This document shows positions 47,417 to 62,893 of a stretch of 64,000 nucleotides of DNA, piece by piece (positions within the stretch are counted from its first letter, which is position 1; each line of letters begins with the position of its first letter). The DNA lies in assembly GCA_012839295.1 (NCBI GenBank), contig DUNO01000050.1, forward strand, positions 1 to 64,000, written 5' to 3'. The notes under the pieces are model-generated. The model had not been told where the DNA came from and searched no databases. It was given only the letters and a program-made list of their open reading frames with translations. Both the position numbers and the translations under genes were made by a program. The DNA comes from Clostridiales bacterium. Its GTDB lineage: Bacteria; Bacillota; Clostridia; Lachnospirales; Lachnospiraceae.

Positions 47417-49492
47417 ATGGGAAAAAGAATTGTAATTGTTGGAGCCGGCTATGCTGGCATTCTAACAGCTAAAAAATTAGAGAAGAAGTTAAAAAAACAG
47501 GATGTTCAAATCACTGTAATTGACAAAAATCCCTTCCATACGATGTTAACGGAATTACATGAAGTGGCAGCAAACCGGGTGGACGAAGACAGTATCAAGA
47601 TTAGCCTGAAAAAGGTCTTTGCAGGCAGAAAAGTGGATGTGAAGACGGATACGGTTTCTTCCATTGATTTCGCTAAAAAGACAGTGGTTGGAACGAATGA
47701 AAGCTATTCCTATGATTATTTGGTTCTGGCAGCAGGCTCCAAGCCCAACTTTTTTGGAGTACAGGGCGCAGAGGAGTATGCTTATAAGCTTTGGTCCTAT
47801 GATGATGCAGTTATCTTAAAGGATCAGATCCATAATACCTTCCGTAAGGCAATGCGTGAGACCAATCCGGAGGAGAGGAAAAGATTACTTACCTTCTGGA
47901 TTGTCGGAGCGGGCTTTACCGGTGTTGAGATGGTTGGTGAATTAGCGGAATATGTCCCGATCCTGTGTGAGAAATATAATATTGACCGCAGCGAGGTCAG
48001 TCTGTTTAATGTAGATGGCTTAAGCAGGGTAATTCCTACTTTATCGGAAAAGTTATCTGCCAAGGTTCAGAGAAGGCTGGAAAAGATGCGGGTTAAGGTG
48101 ATTTTAAATACCTTCGTTTCGGAAATCGGTTCGGATTTCATCAGCCTGAAGGAAGGCGACCGTGTTAACCGGTATCCGGCAGGAACAATTGTATGGGCAG
48201 CAGGAATCCAGAGTACGGATGTGACACAGAAAACCGTTGATAACCTGGAGGTTGTCCAGGGCGGCCGTGTTCAGGTTGATGCGTATTTGCGTTCTACGAA
48301 GGATAAGAATGTATATGTCATCGGTGATAATATGTATTACATTCCCGAGGGCGAGGAGCGTCCGGTTCCACAGATGGTGGAAAATTGTGAGCAAAGCTCC
48401 GATACCGCAGCCCACAATATTGTATGTGATATTACCGGCAGCGGAAGCCTTGAAGAATATAAGCCGAAATTCCACGGTGTTATGGTCAGCATCGGCGGAC
48501 GTTATGCGGTTTGCCATGTGGGTCTGCCCGGAAGGTTTTTTAGCATGCCATCCTTTTTGGCCATGTTTGCAAAGCATTTTATTAATATTATTTATTTCAT
48601 ACAGGTTCTTGGCTGGAATAAGGTTTTCAATTATGCGAAGCATGAATTTTTCACCATCAGGAACTGCAGAAGCTTTGTCGGCGGACATTTCTCTAACAGG
48701 ACACCAAGCTTCCTATTGGTACCGCTCCGTCTTTGGCTTGGAGCAATATGGGTATTTGAAGGTATCATGAAGATTGTGGAAGGCTGGTTTACCTCTCCGA
48801 AGTTAACAGGCTTCTTTGGCGGGGCAAACTCCTGGTATGACACGATCCTGAATGGTACATCAGCTCCTGCGACAGATGCAACCTCATCCGCAACAGTATC
48901 TTCTGTGGATACAATTACGAAAGCAGTTGCGGTTGTATCAAAATCAGTCAGGGTAATCACGACTGCAGCAGATGCGGCATCCTCCGCTACCGTTGATGCA
49001 GGTGCGGCAGCAGGTGCAGGAGAGCAGGCTGCCCAGGCAGTAGGTCATGTATTAGTTAATTTTAATTTCTTAGGTTTGGTCCGGGTGATTTTCGTCAGCG
49101 GAAAGGAGCTGGCGCATTCTACAATTAGTGACTATGCTTTTAAGCTGGATATACCGTTGATGGACTGGTTTGTTAGCCATCTGATCCTTCCGAGCAATGG
49201 AATGCAGATGTTTATGCAGGTATTTATCGTTCTGGCGGAAATATTAATCGGACTTGCACTGATGGGCGGTTTACTTACTACCCCGGCAGCGGCATTTTCA
49301 CTTGTACTGCAATTCATGTTCGTATGTACTACCGGTTTATACCTTGGAACCTTCTGGATGGTATTTGGCGCAATCGCCGTATTAATTGGTGCAGGCAGGA
49401 CCTTAGGACTTGATTATTATGCAATGCCCGGACTGAAGAAAGGGTGGAAGAGGCTGCCTTTTGTAAGAAAGTGGTATCTCTATAATGACTAA
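47417..49492 (+). CDS. ndh2: Type II NADH dehydrogenase with membrane extension (Ndh2 of EET)
   Basis: A 691-residue flavoprotein that would oxidise NADH and reduce demethylmenaquinone. The FAD site is VIVGAGYAG near the start and the NADH site WIVGAGFTGVEMVGEL near 155-170. Unlike plain NDH-2 (~400 residues), a C-terminal part with about five membrane segments of DoxX-like type is fused on, as in the electron transfer Ndh2 of Listeria. A low-complexity Ala/Thr/Ser linker (about 478-538) interrupts that part. ATG at 47417 follows AAGGAG by 5 bases; an upstream ATG at 47372 has no site. It overlaps dmkB by 8 bases. Confidence 0.87.
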   Translation: MGKRIVIVGAGYAGILTAKKLEKKLKKQDVQITVIDKNPFHTMLTELHEVAANRVDEDSIKISLKKVFAGRKVDVKTDTVSSIDFAKKTVVGTNESYSYDYLVLAAGSKPNFFGVQGAEEYAYKLWSYDDAVILKDQIHNTFRKAMRETNPEERKRLLTFWIVGAGFTGVEMVGELAEYVPILCEKYNIDRSEVSLFNVDGLSRVIPTLSEKLSAKVQRRLEKMRVKVILNTFVSEIGSDFISLKEGDRVNRYPAGTIVWAAGIQSTDVTQKTVDNLEVVQGGRVQVDAYLRSTKDKNVYVIGDNMYYIPEGEERPVPQMVENCEQSSDTAAHNIVCDITGSGSLEEYKPKFHGVMVSIGGRYAVCHVGLPGRFFSMPSFLAMFAKHFINIIYFIQVLGWNKVFNYAKHEFFTIRNCRSFVGGHFSNRTPSFLLVPLRLWLGAIWVFEGIMKIVEGWFTSPKLTGFFGGANSWYDTILNGTSAPATDATSSATVSSVDTITKAVAVVSKSVRVITTAADAASSATVDAGAAAGAGEQAAQAVGHVLVNFNFLGLVRVIFVSGKELAHSTISDYAFKLDIPLMDWFVSHLILPSNGMQMFMQVFIVLAEILIGLALMGGLLTTPAAAFSLVLQFMFVCTTGLYLGTFWMVFGAIAVLIGAGRTLGLDYYAMPGLKKGWKRLPFVRKWYLYND

Positions 49493-50465
49493 TGACAATA
49501 CACGACAAGAGAGCTTGAACCAGGCGCTCCTGCCGGAGGAAGCTTTGGAGCAGGTGAAGCGGGAAGTGGAGCATGCCCTTTCCAAATCGCCCTTGCTGAT
49601 ACGTGAGTATACAAAGCATCTTGCCATGTCACAGGGTAAATATATCCGGGCAGTCTCAGTTATTACCTGTGCTATGGATAAGGAGGGCAGGGTTGCTGCC
49701 AATGCGGTTAAGATTGCCGCGGCGATTGAAATATTGCATCTGGCTACTTTGGTTCATGATGATATTATTGACAATGCGGATCTTCGGAGGGGAGAAGTCA
49801 CACTGCAGAAAAAATACGGCAAACGTACGGCTGTAATCTGTGGGGACTATCTTCTTAGCATGGCACTGAAAATGGGTGCCTCGATTGAAAATAAAAAGGA
49901 TTACCTGGACTTAAGGCTTCCCGATTATGTGGGAAGGGTATGCCTCGGTGAGCTGAACCAGCATTTGAATAACCATAATCTGAGCTTGTCGGTCTTCCGG
50001 TACCTAAAGATCATTTCCGGAAAAACGGCTGCTTTGTTTGAAGCCTCTTACTATGCCGGTGCGATTTTTTCAGGATGCTCCGAGGCAGAAGCCAAAAAGT
50101 ATAAAAGACTGGGCTACTATGTTGGAATGATATTCCAACTGGTGGACGACTGTATTGATTTTGAAGAGACAGTTGAGACCGCATATAAACCGGTACAGTC
50201 TGACTACGAGCAGGGCGTCATTACCTTGCCGCTAATCCATGCGTTGACAAAACGGCAGGATTTGAAGGAAAGGGCGGGGCAGTCCGGCTTGCAAAGGGAA
50301 GAAATCAACAAGGCGGTTACGGAGAGCGGAGGAATCACATTTACCCGCGCTTTCGTCCAGAGGTATTATGATAAGTCTGTAAAGGTAATCGAAGGGCTGG
50401 AAGCCGATGGGGATAAGCAGGATAAGCTGATGCACATTTTAAAGAAGGCTTCTAGGATTGGTTAA
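49485..50465 (+). CDS. dmkB: Polyprenyl diphosphate synthase (DmkB-like)
   Basis: A 326-residue trans-prenyl synthase. The two aspartate-rich motifs are D92-D-I-I-D96 (HDDIIDNADLRRG) and D221-D-C-I-D225 (QLVDDCIDF), which bind magnesium and the diphosphates. It would build the isoprenoid tail for the quinone made with the next gene. Position between ndh2 and dmkA supports the DmkB role in the dedicated quinone pathway rather than general polyprenol synthesis. It overlaps ndh2. Confidence 0.85.
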   Translation: MTNDNTRQESLNQALLPEEALEQVKREVEHALSKSPLLIREYTKHLAMSQGKYIRAVSVITCAMDKEGRVAANAVKIAAAIEILHLATLVHDDIIDNADLRRGEVTLQKKYGKRTAVICGDYLLSMALKMGASIENKKDYLDLRLPDYVGRVCLGELNQHLNNHNLSLSVFRYLKIISGKTAALFEASYYAGAIFSGCSEAEAKKYKRLGYYVGMIFQLVDDCIDFEETVETAYKPVQSDYEQGVITLPLIHALTKRQDLKERAGQSGLQREEINKAVTESGGITFTRAFVQRYYDKSVKVIEGLEADGDKQDKLMHILKKASRIG

Positions 50466-50516
50466 TAAAGCTTGGCAGAAAATAGGCGGCCGCACCTGCG
50501 GCCAAAGTGAGGGAGC

Positions 50517-51416
50517 ATGGTAAAGAGATTTCTGGATTACGTCGAGATTAGGACGAAGATTACCAGTACATTTACGTTTTTTATGACGATAGCGTTCCTG
50601 CTGTACCAGAAGCAGGCAATTCGATGGGACTTGACCTTAGTATTTTTTGCTGCCATGTTTCTCTTCGATTTAACGACGACTGCCATAAATAATTATATTG
50701 ATACGAAGAATAACCACCAGATCCTGCAATTTAGCAGGAGGACAGCATTGATTATCATCTACGTTTTGTTTGCAATAAGCGCTGCCCTGGGGTTATTGCT
50801 TGCTTACCGGACGGATCTCGTTGTTTTGCTGGCCGGCGGGCTGTGCTTCCTGTGCGGTGTCTTCTATACCTATGGTCCGGTTCCAATTTCCAGGATGCCC
50901 TTGGGGGAGGTATTATCAGGATTGTTTTATGGACTGTTAATTCCATTCATCCTGCTTTACATCAATTCCCCGGCAGGAACCTACCTAGAGCTTGGGGTAA
51001 GCTTGAAGACAATCTCGCTGGAGCTTCAGGTATGGCCTGTAATCACCTTGCTTTTATTGTCCGTAACACCTTTTTGTGTGACGGCAAATATCATGCTGGC
51101 CAACAATATCTGTGATGTGGAGAAGGATATTGCGGTGAAGCGGCATACCTTGCCTTATTATATCGGTAGGAAGGCTCTTTACCTGTTTGCAGGATTATAT
51201 TATCTGACCTATGGGGCTACGGTAATCATGGTTTTGTGCAGTATCCTGCATCCGATTTGCCTTCTGTCCCTGGCAACGGTTATTTTGGTTCAGAAAAATA
51301 TCAATGTCTTTTTTAAGAAGCAGGATAAGGCAGTGACATTTGTATGCGCCATTAAGAATTTTGTTATTATTATGGGCGTTAATTCGTGTTTAATCCTGGT
51401 TAGCGCGTTTCTTTAG
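50517..51416 (+). CDS. dmkA: UbiA/MenA prenyltransferase (DmkA-like)
   Basis: A 299-residue membrane protein with about eight to nine hydrophobic segments. The first metal motif is NNYIDTKN (N-x3-D) near residue 60, and the second NNICDVEKDI near 200. It would join a polyprenyl chain to 1,4-dihydroxy-2-naphthoate, giving demethylmenaquinone. It lies 51 bases after dmkB. In Listeria the equivalent gene supplies a quinone pool separate from respiration. No men genes for the naphthoate are in the window. Confidence 0.85.
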   Translation: MVKRFLDYVEIRTKITSTFTFFMTIAFLLYQKQAIRWDLTLVFFAAMFLFDLTTTAINNYIDTKNNHQILQFSRRTALIIIYVLFAISAALGLLLAYRTDLVVLLAGGLCFLCGVFYTYGPVPISRMPLGEVLSGLFYGLLIPFILLYINSPAGTYLELGVSLKTISLELQVWPVITLLLLSVTPFCVTANIMLANNICDVEKDIAVKRHTLPYYIGRKALYLFAGLYYLTYGATVIMVLCSILHPICLLSLATVILVQKNINVFFKKQDKAVTFVCAIKNFVIIMGVNSCLILVSAFL

Positions 51417-51527
51417 CCCCATAATAGCATGATAAGCAAGAATATCATGATAGGTATATTATTTCCATTTCCGGGATGATGCTGCAATAACCGGAGGAAT
51501 AAGGTTATTCATCCTTAGGGATTGGGT

Positions 51528-51594
51528 TAATATAAAGTTATCAGAAGTTGTACTTTAACTTCTGATAAAAGGCGCTGTTTTTGCGCCATGCATC
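51528..51594 (-). repeat. Dispersed 66-bp hairpin repeat, family 1, copy A
   Basis: In minus orientation this reads as a GGCGC/GCGCC hairpin, CTTTTAT, then a long hairpin (TTATCAGAAGTT / AACTTCTGATAA), then CTTTATATTA. It matches 53067-53132 and 62855-62919 along the whole length. It sits between dmkA and pplA, so any shared transcript must pass through two hairpins. Confidence 0.85.
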
Positions 51595-51643
51595 TATAAA
51601 TTGGTACACAACGAAAAATATCAAACATGGGAGGATTAAAAAA

Positions 51644-52750
51644 ATGAAAAAGGTTTTAACTTTATTATTAGCTTTAACCATGGTACTTGGATTAGTATCA
51701 GGATGCGCAAAGTCATCCACCCCTTCGGCCGATCCTACGAAAGCACCTGAGGCTACAACAGCACCAGAAGCTACCACAGCTCCGGAGACAGAAGCAACTA
51801 TAGCACCTGAGGCTTCCGGCGGTGCAAAGACAGGCCTGGCTGTAATAACCTCGCTTGGAAAATCAACAGCTGCAACAGCTGATGCAGAAGGCTTAGCTCA
51901 GACAGATGCGGCTATCTTTGCTGTATTAGTAGGCGCAGACGGCAAGATTTTAGATTGTAAAATTGATGCTGCCCAGACAAAGATCAAATTCTCAGCAGAC
52001 GGCAAGATCACATCCGATAAGGCAGCTGAGTACAAATCAAAGCAACAGCTTGGTGATGAGTACGGCATGAGAGGATCTTCTAAAATCGGTAAGGAATGGA
52101 ATGAGCAGGCGGATGCATTCGCAGCTTATGTAGTTGGTAAGACAGTGGATGAGGTAAAAGGTCTTGCCGTGACAGAAGAAGGTGTAGCTGGTGATGCAGA
52201 CTTAGCAGCTTCCGTAACCGTGCATATCGCTGATTTTATTGAAGGTGTTGCAGAAGCTGTTGCCAACGCACAAGATTTAGGCGCAGGCGCAGCAGATAAA
52301 TTAGGTCTTGGTGTTACAACAGATATCGCAAGCTCTAAGGATGCAGCAGCAGATGCAGACGGCTTGGCGCAGGCTTACACAAATATTGCAGTTGTAACAG
52401 TTGATGCAGGCAACAAGATTACAAGCTGCTTCATTGATGCAGTTCAGGGAAATGTTAATTTTAATACAACTGGTGCCATCACAACAGATTTAACAGTTGC
52501 TCCTCAGGCAAAGCAGGTGCTTAAGGATGCCTATGGCATGAAGAAGGCTTCTTCTATCGGTAAAGAATGGTATGAGCAGGCAAATGCATTTTCAGCATAT
52601 GTTACTGGCAAAACTGTCGATGAAGTAAACGGTATTGCTTTAAATGAAGAAGGCAAAGCAGCAGACGCAGATCTTGCAGCATCTGTGACCGTGCATGTTG
52701 GACCATTTATGGCAAACATCACTAAGGCAGTGGAAAACGCAGCAAAATAA
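51644..52750 (+). CDS. pplA: Duplicated FMN-binding surface lipoprotein (PplA-like)
   Basis: A 368-residue lipoprotein. The lipobox VSGC places the lipid-bound Cys at 21. A Pro/Thr/Ala/Glu linker (about 26-58) would span the wall. Two repeats of about 150 residues follow, each with SIGKEW, AYVxGKTVDEV and an identical DADLAASVTVH block. The Thr residues, T192 and T349, fit the D-x-x-S/A-x-x-T spacing of ApbE flavinylation sites, so each repeat probably carries one covalent FMN. It would pass electrons from the quinone to outside acceptors. GGGAGG lies before the ATG at 51644. It is flanked by inverted repeat copies. Confidence 0.85.
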   Translation: MKKVLTLLLALTMVLGLVSGCAKSSTPSADPTKAPEATTAPEATTAPETEATIAPEASGGAKTGLAVITSLGKSTAATADAEGLAQTDAAIFAVLVGADGKILDCKIDAAQTKIKFSADGKITSDKAAEYKSKQQLGDEYGMRGSSKIGKEWNEQADAFAAYVVGKTVDEVKGLAVTEEGVAGDADLAASVTVHIADFIEGVAEAVANAQDLGAGAADKLGLGVTTDIASSKDAAADADGLAQAYTNIAVVTVDAGNKITSCFIDAVQGNVNFNTTGAITTDLTVAPQAKQVLKDAYGMKKASSIGKEWYEQANAFSAYVTGKTVDEVNGIALNEEGKAADADLAASVTVHVGPFMANITKAVENAAK

Positions 52751-52769
52751 TCCATTTCCAATAAAGAAG

Positions 52770-52905
52770 GATCTTCTAACTGAAGTGGTTTGCTTTTAAA
52801 ATGAAATTAATTTTCTTCTGATGAAGTTGATTTTCTTTTGACAAAGTAATTCTCTTTTAATGAAGTGAAATTCTTCTAATTGAAGTGAATTTGAAGTGAA
52901 TTCCT
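52770..52905. repeat. Imperfect ~20-bp tandem repeats after pplA
   Basis: About six degenerate units near the consensus TTCTTYTRATGAAGTGAATT run in series. Each unit can partly pair with itself (TTCTT with AAG). There is no open reading frame of note. The array is unlike the surrounding sequence. Confidence 0.6.
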
Positions 52906-52934
52906 TCTGCGTGATGAAGAAAGCGTGATATAGG

Positions 52935-53008
52935 GAGTGCTAGAATATAATTTCTATTATTGGGAGATTTCCTGAAACAGTAGAAAAATGTTTTCTGGCA
53001 CTCTCTTT
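52935..53008 (+). terminator. Candidate long-hairpin terminator after pplA
   Basis: GAGTGCTAGAA (52935-52945) pairs with TTCTGGCACTC (52993-53003), with an inner stem ATTTCTA/TAGAAAAT, and TCTTTC follows. The loop is long, so strength is uncertain. Confidence 0.5.
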
Positions 53009-53066
53009 CATATTAATAGGAAGCAGATGCCGATTCCTATAATCGGTGCGCCTCTTGGGGCACACT

Positions 53067-53132
53067 TTGTACGGCGCAAGAACGGCGCCTTTTATGAGAA
53101 GTTAAAAAGACAACTTCTAAGAACTTATATTA
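53067..53132 (+). repeat. Dispersed 66-bp hairpin repeat, family 1, copy B
   Basis: GGCGC/GCGCC hairpin, CTTTTATGAGAAGTT, then AACTTCT and CTTATATTA. It lies in the opposite orientation to copy A, so the two form large inverted repeats around pplA. Further small hairpins (CCGAT/ATCGG, GTGC/GCAC) lie just upstream. Confidence 0.85.
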
Positions 53133-53194
53133 CAGGATGACTGGGGCGATGCACCGGAAGCCCCGTTCCCCATATTTCTCTATGAGGTGGAAAA

Positions 53195-54241
53195 TTGAAC
53201 AGAAAAATAGCAGCAATCCTATTATTAATAACAATTTTAGTTACAATGACGTCCTGTGGCAGCGGCAATAAGCGGTACCAGGCTAGCTTTTTGGAGCTGT
53301 TTGATACGGTCACGACAATTATAGGCTATGCAAAGGATGAGGCCACGTTTTCCAAGAAAGCCCAGATGATCTATGATGACCTGAAGGTATACCATGAGCT
53401 CTACGATATTTATAACAATTACGAAGGAATCAATAATATCAAAACTATTAATGACAATGCGGGTATCCAGCCTGTCAAGGTGGACCAGAAGATTATAGAT
53501 CTGCTCAAATTCTCCGAGGAAGCCTACGACATGTCGAAGGGGAAGAAAAATATAGCCTTGGGAGCCGTCCTCCAGGTATGGCATGACTACAGGGAGGAAG
53601 GGACGAATGACCCGGAGAATGCCAAGCTTCCCCCTATGGAATTATTGAAGGAGAAGGCAGAACATACGGACATCCATGATATCATCATTGACGAAGAGGC
53701 GTCAACGGTCTATCTGGCGGATCCTGAAATGAGCCTTGATGTCGGCGCAGTCGCAAAAGGATATGCAACGGAACGGGTGGCCCAATATATGATTGGCCAG
53801 GGCTACACGAGCCTGCTGCTCAGTGTGGGCGGAAACGTAAGGGCAATCGGAAGCAGGGATGAGGCGGACAAGCTCTGGAGTGTAGGGATCCAGAACCCGG
53901 ACCTGGAAAGCGATAAGCAATACCTGATGATTACAAAGCTGGAGAACCTGTCCCTGGTGACCAGCGGTGATTATGAGAGATACTATACCGTGGATGGTGT
54001 CCGTTACCACCATATCATTGACCCGGACACACTGATGCCGGCCAATTACTATACGGCGGTATCCATCATCACAAAGGATTCCGGTTTGGCAGATGCCTTG
54101 TCGGCCACCTTATTTAATATGCCCCTGGAGGAAGGGAAAGCCCTGATTGAATCCATGGAGGGTACTGAGGCAATGTGGGTCAATAAGGATGGCAGCCTGG
54201 TCTACAGCTCCGGGTTTGAGAAATTCATTAAGAAGGATTAG
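53195..54241 (+). CDS. fmnB: FMN transferase lipoprotein ApbE/FmnB
   Basis: A 348-residue ApbE-family enzyme that transfers FMN from FAD onto Thr or Ser of target proteins outside the cell. It has a lipobox (TMTSC, Cys21). Conserved features are ELFDTVTTI near the start, DVGAVAKGYATERVAQYM, LLSVGGNVRAIGS and SGDYERYYTVDGVRYHHIIDP. The last region holds the FAD and magnesium site. Its target is almost certainly the PplA-like protein encoded upstream. Start is TTG at 53195 with GAGGTGG 4 bases before it. The gap to pplA is filled by repeats and a possible terminator, so it may have its own promoter. Confidence 0.88.
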   Translation: MNRKIAAILLLITILVTMTSCGSGNKRYQASFLELFDTVTTIIGYAKDEATFSKKAQMIYDDLKVYHELYDIYNNYEGINNIKTINDNAGIQPVKVDQKIIDLLKFSEEAYDMSKGKKNIALGAVLQVWHDYREEGTNDPENAKLPPMELLKEKAEHTDIHDIIIDEEASTVYLADPEMSLDVGAVAKGYATERVAQYMIGQGYTSLLLSVGGNVRAIGSRDEADKLWSVGIQNPDLESDKQYLMITKLENLSLVTSGDYERYYTVDGVRYHHIIDPDTLMPANYYTAVSIITKDSGLADALSATLFNMPLEEGKALIESMEGTEAMWVNKDGSLVYSSGFEKFIKKD

Positions 54242-54390: not shown

Positions 54391-54846
54391 ATGGATCATA
54401 TAGACAGACAGTTATTAATCATGCTTCAGGAGAACGCAAGGGTGCCATTAAAGCAGCTTGCAGAAAAGGTATACCTATCTTCACCGGCAGTAGCCGCAAG
54501 AATTGAACGGCTGGAGAAGAAGGGCATCATCAAGGGCTACCATACGAATATTGATTGGCTGAAGCTGGGGCATCATATTACCGCATTTATTAATCTTGAG
54601 GTAGCGCCGGCACAGAAATCAGAGTTCTATCCATTCATCAAGTCCTGCCCCAACGTTATGGAATGCAATTGTGTCACAGGAAATTTCTCGATGCTGATCA
54701 AGGTATGCTTTAAAAGCACCATGGATTTGGACCTGTTTATCGGAGAGATCCAGAAGTTTGGTAAGACCAGTACCCAGGTCGTCTTTTCCACCGCAGTGGA
54801 GCACCGGGGAATACAGGTTCTGGCGGCGGAGAACGAGGAAATATAA
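54391..54846 (+). CDS. Lrp/AsnC family regulator
   Basis: A 151-residue regulator. The N-terminal helix-turn-helix is DRQLLIMLQENARVPLKQLA followed by SSPAVAARIERLEKKGIIKGY. The C-terminal alpha/beta sandwich (about 65-150) is the RAM ligand-binding domain that binds amino acids in relatives. It is monocistronic with a terminator about 120 bases downstream. Its target is not evident from position. Confidence 0.88.
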   Translation: MDHIDRQLLIMLQENARVPLKQLAEKVYLSSPAVAARIERLEKKGIIKGYHTNIDWLKLGHHITAFINLEVAPAQKSEFYPFIKSCPNVMECNCVTGNFSMLIKVCFKSTMDLDLFIGEIQKFGKTSTQVVFSTAVEHRGIQVLAAENEEI

Positions 54847-62344: not shown

Positions 62345-62893
62345 ATGGGGAACGTCGTATTGATTGGGATGCCCGGTGCGGGTAAGAGTACGGTTGGAGT
62401 AATTTTAGCGAAGGTGTTGGGCTATCGCTTTATTGATTCGGATTTATTGATCCAGGAGCAGGAGAAATGCCTGTTGAAGGATATTATTGAACGGGATGGG
62501 CTTGAAGGGCTCATCCGGATTGAAGAGCAGGTAAATTTTGAAATTGCGGTGGAGAATTCTGTGATTGCTACAGGCGGCAGCGTAATTTACGGCGCGAAAG
62601 CGATGGAGCACCTGCGGGAGATTGGCACCGTGGTCTATATACAGCTCAGCTATAAGACAATTAATAACCGCCTGGGCAATATTAAGCAAAGAGGTGTGGT
62701 ATTCCGCGACGGGCAGACGTTAAAGGATCTTTATGAGGAACGCTGCCCCCTCTATGAAAAATATGCCCATATCATCGTGGATGCTGAGAAGCTGGGCATG
62801 GAAGAAGTGATGGAAAAGATATTATCGGAACTAAATACATGTTCCGATAATCGGGATGCACGGCGCAGGTACAGCGCCTTTTATGAGAAGTAA
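62345..62893 (+). CDS. aroK: Shikimate kinase
   Basis: About 182 residues, a P-loop kinase that makes shikimate-3-phosphate. Walker A is GMPGAGKST (8-16), followed by FIDSDLLIQ, the binding Arg/Glu region, and the TGGSVIY loop. The lid region holds RGVVFRDG. The ATG at 62345 directly precedes the first strand; in-frame ATGs at 62315 and 62333 are also possible. The last ~20 codons lie inside a dispersed repeat, so the natural end was probably near LSEL and the tail is repeat-derived. Specificity for shikimate rather than gluconate is inferred from overall pattern. Confidence 0.75.
   Translation: MGNVVLIGMPGAGKSTVGVILAKVLGYRFIDSDLLIQEQEKCLLKDIIERDGLEGLIRIEEQVNFEIAVENSVIATGGSVIYGAKAMEHLREIGTVVYIQLSYKTINNRLGNIKQRGVVFRDGQTLKDLYEERCPLYEKYAHIIVDAEKLGMEEVMEKILSELNTCSDNRDARRRYSAFYEK

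Follow-up and report, generated by a model that had tools for sequence, protein, structure and literature searches.

A flavin-based extracellular electron transfer core in a Lachnospiraceae genome, with predicted flavinylation sites on its type II NADH dehydrogenase

We analysed a stretch of 64,000 nucleotides (the window) from a Lachnospiraceae genome of 6.36 Mb in 82 contigs, and found that it holds the core of a flavin-based extracellular electron transfer (FLEET) pathway: five genes on one strand at positions 47417-54241, in the order ndh2-dmkB-dmkA-lipoprotein-apbE. The surprising part of this locus, which was missed in the initial annotation, is a set of motifs of the kind recognised by ApbE flavin transferases, located in a loop of the dehydrogenase Ndh2. 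We favour, at roughly two chances in three, the reading that this is a clostridial FLEET-type pathway in which the dehydrogenase itself carries covalent flavins at predicted flavinylation sites. As first described, the locus would be unremarkable, one more example of a known pathway in which a rearrangement has done no harm; the motif array, by contrast, offers a direct way to examine how electrons leave the quinone pool.

Flavinylation-type motifs in the Ndh2 loop

The structural model of Ndh2 identifies it as a genuine type II NADH dehydrogenase (Foldseek match to NDH-2 4nwz, E 2.4e-37, template modelling score 0.95 by target). The membrane extension that had been ascribed to it was borne out, and takes the form of a C-terminal, DoxX/DoxD-like domain. 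The relevant features are as follows.

47417..49492, + strand: ndh2, type II NADH dehydrogenase of 691 aa with a C-terminal DoxX/DoxD-like membrane domain; Pyr_redox_2 match at 4.9e-39
48857..49039, + strand: predicted disordered Ndh2 loop, aa 481-541; AlphaFold confidence (pLDDT) about 26-30; probably outward facing, from the charges of the segments on either side
48875..48895, + strand: ApbE-type motif 1, DATSSAT, aa 487-493, from a motif search of the loop
48971..48991, + strand: ApbE-type motif 2, DAASSAT, aa 519-525, from the same search

ApbE recognises D-x-x-[S/T]-G-A-[S/T]; these seven residues suffice, and surface loops can be modified (PMC12052999). Both window motifs fit this pattern except for a Ser in place of Gly at position 5. 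In an alignment of Ndh2 proteins, an Ala-rich loop containing repeated strings such as DAVSAAT lies between the first two predicted membrane helices. Loops were delimited by alignment in 108 sequences (91 after identical ones were dropped, 88 without three from Bacilli), and the motif was counted in a strict form, D[AG]x[ST][GAS]A[ST], as well as in looser and relaxed forms. The strict motif occurred 126 times, in 72 of the 88 distinct non-Bacilli loops, with at least two copies in 43 loops; none was found in the rest of the Ndh2 proteins. Composition-preserving shuffles of each loop gave a mean total of 0.5 strict motifs (maximum 3), a statistic that ignores kinship, as the sequences are related and not independent trials. 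The reversed motif and a permuted motif each occurred once in the 88 loops. The looser motif was present in 79/88 loops, and the relaxed motif in 87/88, compared with 8.4 in shuffles. Of 157 loose matches, 152 had Thr as the seventh residue. The Asp was accompanied by Ser/Thr at position 4 and by Ala-Thr at positions 6-7, and 13 of the 15 pairs of identical motifs within one gene differed by silent bases.

Specificity was assessed in proteins of at least 150 aa from 80 loci, the best 80 of 363 related stretches obtained in one scan of genome contigs; loci of this kind are not rare. The strict motif was present in 65 of the 80 Ndh2 proteins and in 6 of 534 other proteins, and was absent from all window-type lipoproteins (0/63), FmnB (0/59), DmkB (0/78), DmkA (0/64), EetB (0/44) and EetA (0/11). 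The six other proteins were the PplA-type proteins of loci L106 and L113, two proteins of L097 (Rnf-subunit-like by reading of the sequences) and two of L098 with the same motifs. The statement that no other cluster protein has the motif was discarded as too wide, given the two PplA-type proteins.

The C-terminal domain of Ndh2 matched DoxX, DoxD and MauE in 34, 18 and 42 of 49 homologues, respectively, at E up to 1; its DoxX score was 16.5 bits in the window and 23.9 in Listeria, with a cut-off of 23.6. At this level of sequence likeness, the domain seems to resemble DoxX and DoxD, a subunit of thiosulfate:quinone oxidoreductase. Mean numbers of Lys+Arg versus Asp+Glu were 5.3 versus 1.1 in the segment preceding helix 1, 4.8 versus 10.7 in the outer loop (Ala-rich, with 62-131 residues across homologues) and 6.9 versus 2.0 in the C-terminal tail, from which we infer that the N-terminus and the tail lie in the cytosol and that the loop faces outward. 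If this modelled topology holds, the membrane would separate the motifs from the FAD (flavin adenine dinucleotide) domain.

Several observations, besides the kinship of the sequences, count against flavinylation of the loop. Gly is found at motif position 5 in only 14 of 157 loose matches, and the Gly form in 14 of 88 loops; a review reports flavinylation of ~50% after a change of Gly to Ala, and a lower degree of modification in loops (PMC12052999). Sixteen of the 88 loops are without the strict motif and nine without the loose one. The three Bacilli loops, one from Listeria and two from Enterococcus, contain SGAS or TGAS but do not match the motif with Asp; they also hold further Ala/Ser/Thr strings (three sequences only), and changing the motif Asp to Ala is reported to have minor effects only (PMC12052999). 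FmnB may have other targets in L106 and L113, where the PplA-type proteins carry DAVSGAT/DAVTGAT and both Ndh2 proteins keep their loop motifs, and a 141-aa FMN_bind protein on contig C6 of the source genome could likewise be a target. Finally, the loop is predicted to be disordered, with no flavin pocket in the model.

The lipoprotein at the pplA position

The fourth gene had been taken for pplA, encoding a duplicated lipoprotein that binds flavin mononucleotide (FMN), accompanied by its ApbE transferase. The duplication and the ApbE lipoprotein stood up to analysis; the identification as an FMN lipoprotein did not.

51644..52750, + strand: two-domain lipoprotein at the pplA position, not a recognised PplA; lipobox Cys21; no Pfam or NCBIfam match
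52193..52219, + strand: DADLAASVT of repeat 1, conserved, at a position comparable with the SGAT site of PplA
52664..52690, + strand: DADLAASVT of repeat 2, a conserved site

The protein consists of two similar domains behind the lipobox. It matched no NCBIfam model, where Listeria PplA, as a control, scored 436 bits with NF041941. FMN_bind was absent from the 11 Pfam families matched by any of 49 homologues (E up to 0.01); the PplA proteins of Listeria and Enterococcus, the positive control, matched it at ~1e-12. The SGAT motif is likewise missing from the window lipoprotein. In the AlphaFold model the domains have pLDDT values of ~95-98, and no PDB chain was retrieved at E up to 0.001 in a fold search run without a positive control; a weak likeness to IscU scaffolds was seen at E 0.017. 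Searching the sequences of solved structures also yielded no match at E up to 1. A DxDLxxSVT-like string closes most copies of each domain, possibly a remnant or variant of a flavin site. On the evidence of the family models, identity with PplA was rejected, and what is left is a weak profile match with it (hhalign probability 77%, E 2e-5), in which the 95 aligned columns go no further than the signal peptide, the linker and the first strands.

PplA-type proteins with two FMN_bind stretches do occur in two related loci, directly after fmnB (L106:14179-15021 and L113:15423-16271); that of L113 matches FMN_bind at 1.8e-21 and NF041941 at 167 bits (cut-off 325). Because L113 has both this protein and a window-type lipoprotein, the two are different proteins; L106 has the PplA-type protein only. 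FMN_bind is matched three times in the source genome; to judge from the open frames, no two-domain PplA is among these matches.

A dispersed element with small hairpins, resembling repetitive extragenic palindromic (REP) sequences, is found at 51557-51587 (+), 53073-53103 (-) and 62862-62892 (-), so that copies in opposite orientations flank the lipoprotein gene. The genome contains 55 copies at up to 3 mismatches (0 in a backward control); several are paired ~96 bases apart, and three start at base 28 of a contig.

Composition and distribution of the locus

The order ndh2-dmkB-dmkA-lipoprotein-apbE was confirmed at 47417-54241, and the set recurs in relatives. The remaining genes are as follows.

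49485..50465, + strand: dmkB, polyprenyl diphosphate synthase; polyprenyl_synt match at 1.7e-57; nearest NCBIfam model HepT, under its cut-off
50517..51416, + strand: dmkA, UbiA-type 1,4-dihydroxy-2-naphthoate (DHNA) prenyltransferase-like protein; UbiA match at 1.3e-18; NF009926 at 245 bits (cut-off 316)
53195..54241, + strand: fmnB, ApbE-type FAD:protein FMN transferase, a lipoprotein; ApbE match at 9.7e-67; best PDB match 7esa, an FAD:protein FMN transferase
54391..54846, + strand: Lrp/AsnC-type regulator, next after fmnB; shared with two close relatives, loci L082 and L086 (87-89% identical)

Dedicated demethylmenaquinone (DMK) genes, dmkA and dmkB, are therefore present, each scoring under the NCBIfam cut-off of its nearest model. 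Shine-Dalgarno-like sequences precede the starts at 47417, 51644 and 53195. No conserved RNA was found near the locus (no Rfam match at gathering scores in 40000-64000), and the results of promoter and terminator scans, which gave 27 versus 17.1 and 11 versus 6.4 in shuffles, were not used. Adjoining the locus, 22785-46875 forms a carbohydrate-use neighbourhood with a sulfatase and, by reading of the sequences, an ATP-binding cassette sugar importer, AraC-type regulators and rhamnosidase- and beta-galactosidase-like enzymes.

Among 200 genomes surveyed from the family, 8 have Ndh2; among 34 from the genus, 14 do. The source genome is counted in both. The nearest relatives among the 80 loci include Herbinix and Anaerocolumna. 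Among the 55 loci with at least 5.5 kb of sequence downstream of ndh2, FmnB was found in 54 and the window-type lipoprotein in 53.

FAD export and quinone supply

The initial annotation described the locus as lacking eetA and eetB, which is correct for the locus and the window and incorrect for the genome: the latter has one match each to PF07456 and PF07009, adjoining on contig C66, where the eetA-eetB pair is divergent from a second apbE. The C66 EetB scores 147 bits with PF07456 (cut-off 30). In published Listeria work, EetB is the substrate subunit of an FAD exporter with FmnA, and deletion of eetA causes no defect in extracellular electron transfer (EET; PMC9973259); for these reasons a remote eetAB is no obstacle to the pathway. 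Further, the 54 loci with at least 6.5 kb downstream of ndh2 have eetB before fmnB in 23 cases, after it in 14 and nowhere downstream in 17. Absence of the pair thus does not amount to a functional gap, and its loss as the main point of the locus was ruled out by the C66 pair and the export role of EetB. For the flavin transporter, also absent from the window, a homologue of FmnA (the T subunit of an energy-coupling factor transporter, ECF-T) is encoded at C72:33245-34021; it is 42% identical and may be a general ECF-T subunit.

PF07456 matches were found in 180 of 200 family genomes (177 above the cut-off) and so do not mark this pathway in particular. A tree was built from 74 EetB sequences, including 25 unlinked ones drawn from the 30 best-scoring PF07456 matches. 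Of the 33 rows whose gene lies on the dmkA side of pplA/fmnB, 32 made up one side of a branch with 100/100 support; the 33rd, L158, is a long branch whose eetB precedes ndh2. The C66 EetB fell on the other side, with the 25 unlinked Lachnospiraceae copies and 15 post-fmnB copies, between which three label changes are needed. Where the long-branch rows L158 and L024 attach is uncertain, and C66 is placed by branch side, not within that side. Relocation of a classical eetAB to C66 was not supported, the C66 EetB being split from the 32 classical copies by the 100/100 branch.

The second ApbE lipoprotein (L002:9622-10740, on C66) diverges from eetA-eetB in a layout that recurs in other Lachnospiraceae. 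In clostridia, eetB often adjoins Rnf genes (PMC9973259). The source genome has an Rnf-like cluster with an FMN_bind protein (L004; Rnf by reading of the sequences), which this second ApbE perhaps serves. In L056 and L092 (G144, Candidatus Galacturonibacter), eetB directly follows fmnB with no eetA found between, though the two are usually paired. L059 (G051) is an ndh2-fmnB locus in a genome without a PF07456 match at E up to 0.001; that genome must either export FAD by another route or be incompletely assembled.

The check for men genes covered MenD, for which no match above the cut-off was found in the source genome; DHNA is therefore probably scavenged. Among the eight family genomes with Ndh2, MenD was above the cut-off in one and cytochrome bd was found in none. 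In Lactiplantibacillus plantarum, EET depends on Ndh2 and on DHNA supplied from outside, its pplA mutant gives the same anode current, and Lactococcus lactis without pplA makes current (PMC8837199).

Alternative explanations

The locus might be an ordinary Listeria-type FLEET system in which the lipoprotein is a strongly diverged PplA, flavinylated by FmnB at DxDLxxSVT, with the Ndh2 loop serving only as a linker. The place of the gene, the lipobox and the two repeats agree with this, the V-T of the site is near-invariant in both repeats, the site, like SGAT, precedes the last helix, and the hhalign probability is 77%. We nevertheless hold it to be unlikely: the hhalign alignment stops after the first strands, FMN_bind is missing from all 49 homologues and the strict motif from all 63 such lipoproteins, L113 has a separate PplA-type protein, and the Ndh2 loop motifs are left unexplained. 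FMN_bind structures are present in the PDB, and the fold search, albeit without a positive control, returned no significant match.

Quite unlikely, in our view, is a purpose other than extracellular reduction, such as redox balance in the envelope or quinone-dependent disposal of NADH to an internal acceptor; the neighbouring genes include no recognised terminal reductase and the lipoprotein is without an assigned function, but the linked ApbE and lipoprotein both point outside, none of the eight genomes has cytochrome bd, and the related loci of L. plantarum (PMC8837199) and Listeria (PMC9973259) perform ferric reduction. We think it very unlikely that the Ala/Ser/Thr-rich loop is a flexible spacer or O-glycosylated linker whose motif-like strings are a by-product of composition. 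Its richness in Ala, variable length and predicted disorder would suit such a role; however, shuffled, reversed and permuted motifs number 0.5 to 1 versus 126, and the residues at positions 4 and 6-7 go with the Asp. Flavinylation of the Ndh2 loop is favoured because the motifs are conserved and specific and FmnB is linked in 54 of 55 loci, because no two-domain PplA is among the FMN_bind matches of the source genome, because L. plantarum requires Ndh2 and not pplA for current (PMC8837199), because ApbE needs no more than seven residues and can modify surface loops (PMC12052999), because the C-terminal domain is DoxX/DoxD-like, and because none of the eight Ndh2 genomes has cytochrome bd.

Proposed mechanism and comparison with known systems

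Under the favoured reading, Ndh2 would oxidise cytosolic NADH and reduce demethylmenaquinone, which DmkB and DmkA would make from DHNA, itself probably scavenged. FAD would be exported through the one EetB found in the genome, that of C66, probably together with an ECF-T subunit. The lipoprotein FmnB, on the outside of the membrane, would attach FMN to the DATSSAT and DAASSAT threonines of the outward loop. The loop FMNs would take quinol electrons at the outer face and hand them on, whether to the two-domain lipoprotein, to soluble flavins or to acceptors such as ferric iron. A broader proposal, which we regard as evenly poised, is that clostridial FLEET Ndh2 alone is a transmembrane conduit (in reduced form in Bacilli), with NADH inside, DMK via the DoxD-like domain and one to four loop FMNs; the loop, and not the lipoprotein, would be the main ApbE target in most clostridial loci.

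The original description as a flavin-based EET locus thus holds for the FLEET-type core, and fails for the eetA/eetB gap and the identity of PplA. The Listeria monocytogenes FLEET locus (L170) includes at least fmnA, pplA, eetA, eetB and genes for an ApbE protein, an oxidoreductase and a polyprenyl synthetase; the gene names dmkA, dmkB, ndh2 and fmnB are used for this locus as well. Both loci have an Ndh2 with a DoxX-like extension, DMK genes and ApbE/FmnB, and the corresponding loop of the Listeria Ndh2 holds TSGAS. Listeria has an FMN_bind PplA, local eetA/eetB and an Ndh2 loop in which the motif with Asp is missing, whereas in the window the lipoprotein is of another kind and eetA/eetB are remote. 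Two further loci, L106 from Clostridium aminobutyricum and L113 from a metagenome-assembled genome of Bacillota, share with the window the ndh2 family with loop motifs, dmkB, dmkA and fmnB, and differ in having a PplA-type protein after fmnB, in L106 instead of and in L113 besides the window-type lipoprotein. The L. plantarum system, which relies on outside DHNA and needs Ndh2, would be similar in these respects, and is dissimilar in having pplA (PMC8837199).

Multi-flavinylated proteins likewise have several ApbE sites on one extracytosolic protein; they were counted by FMN_bind domains, whereas the window has bare motifs in a membrane-dehydrogenase loop (PMC8238504). In Flavodoxin_4 and FMN_red proteins, one from Anaerocolumna xylanovorans, experiments established that an inserted loop or a tail had brought in an ApbE motif; there the motif is at a known flavin pocket, while that of Ndh2 would be in a separate membrane domain (PMC10979944, PMC11334425). 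No report of a flavinylated Ndh2 was found in the literature searched, judged by titles, opening lines of abstracts and selected passages; the 2018 and 2019 Listeria papers, outside that set, may contain a remark on it.

Implications

Published FLEET work, in the portions available, leaves the carrier of electrons from quinol to the outside unsettled: EetB is an FAD exporter subunit and Listeria can do without eetA (PMC9973259), and PplA is dispensable for L. plantarum current (PMC8837199). If the favoured reading is true, flavin sites on Ndh2 would fill this gap with a protein that is already required, and the substrates of ApbE would extend to a respiratory dehydrogenase without an FMN_bind domain. 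Clostridia that have the locus and lack MenD would then depend on their neighbours' DHNA for this means of electron disposal.

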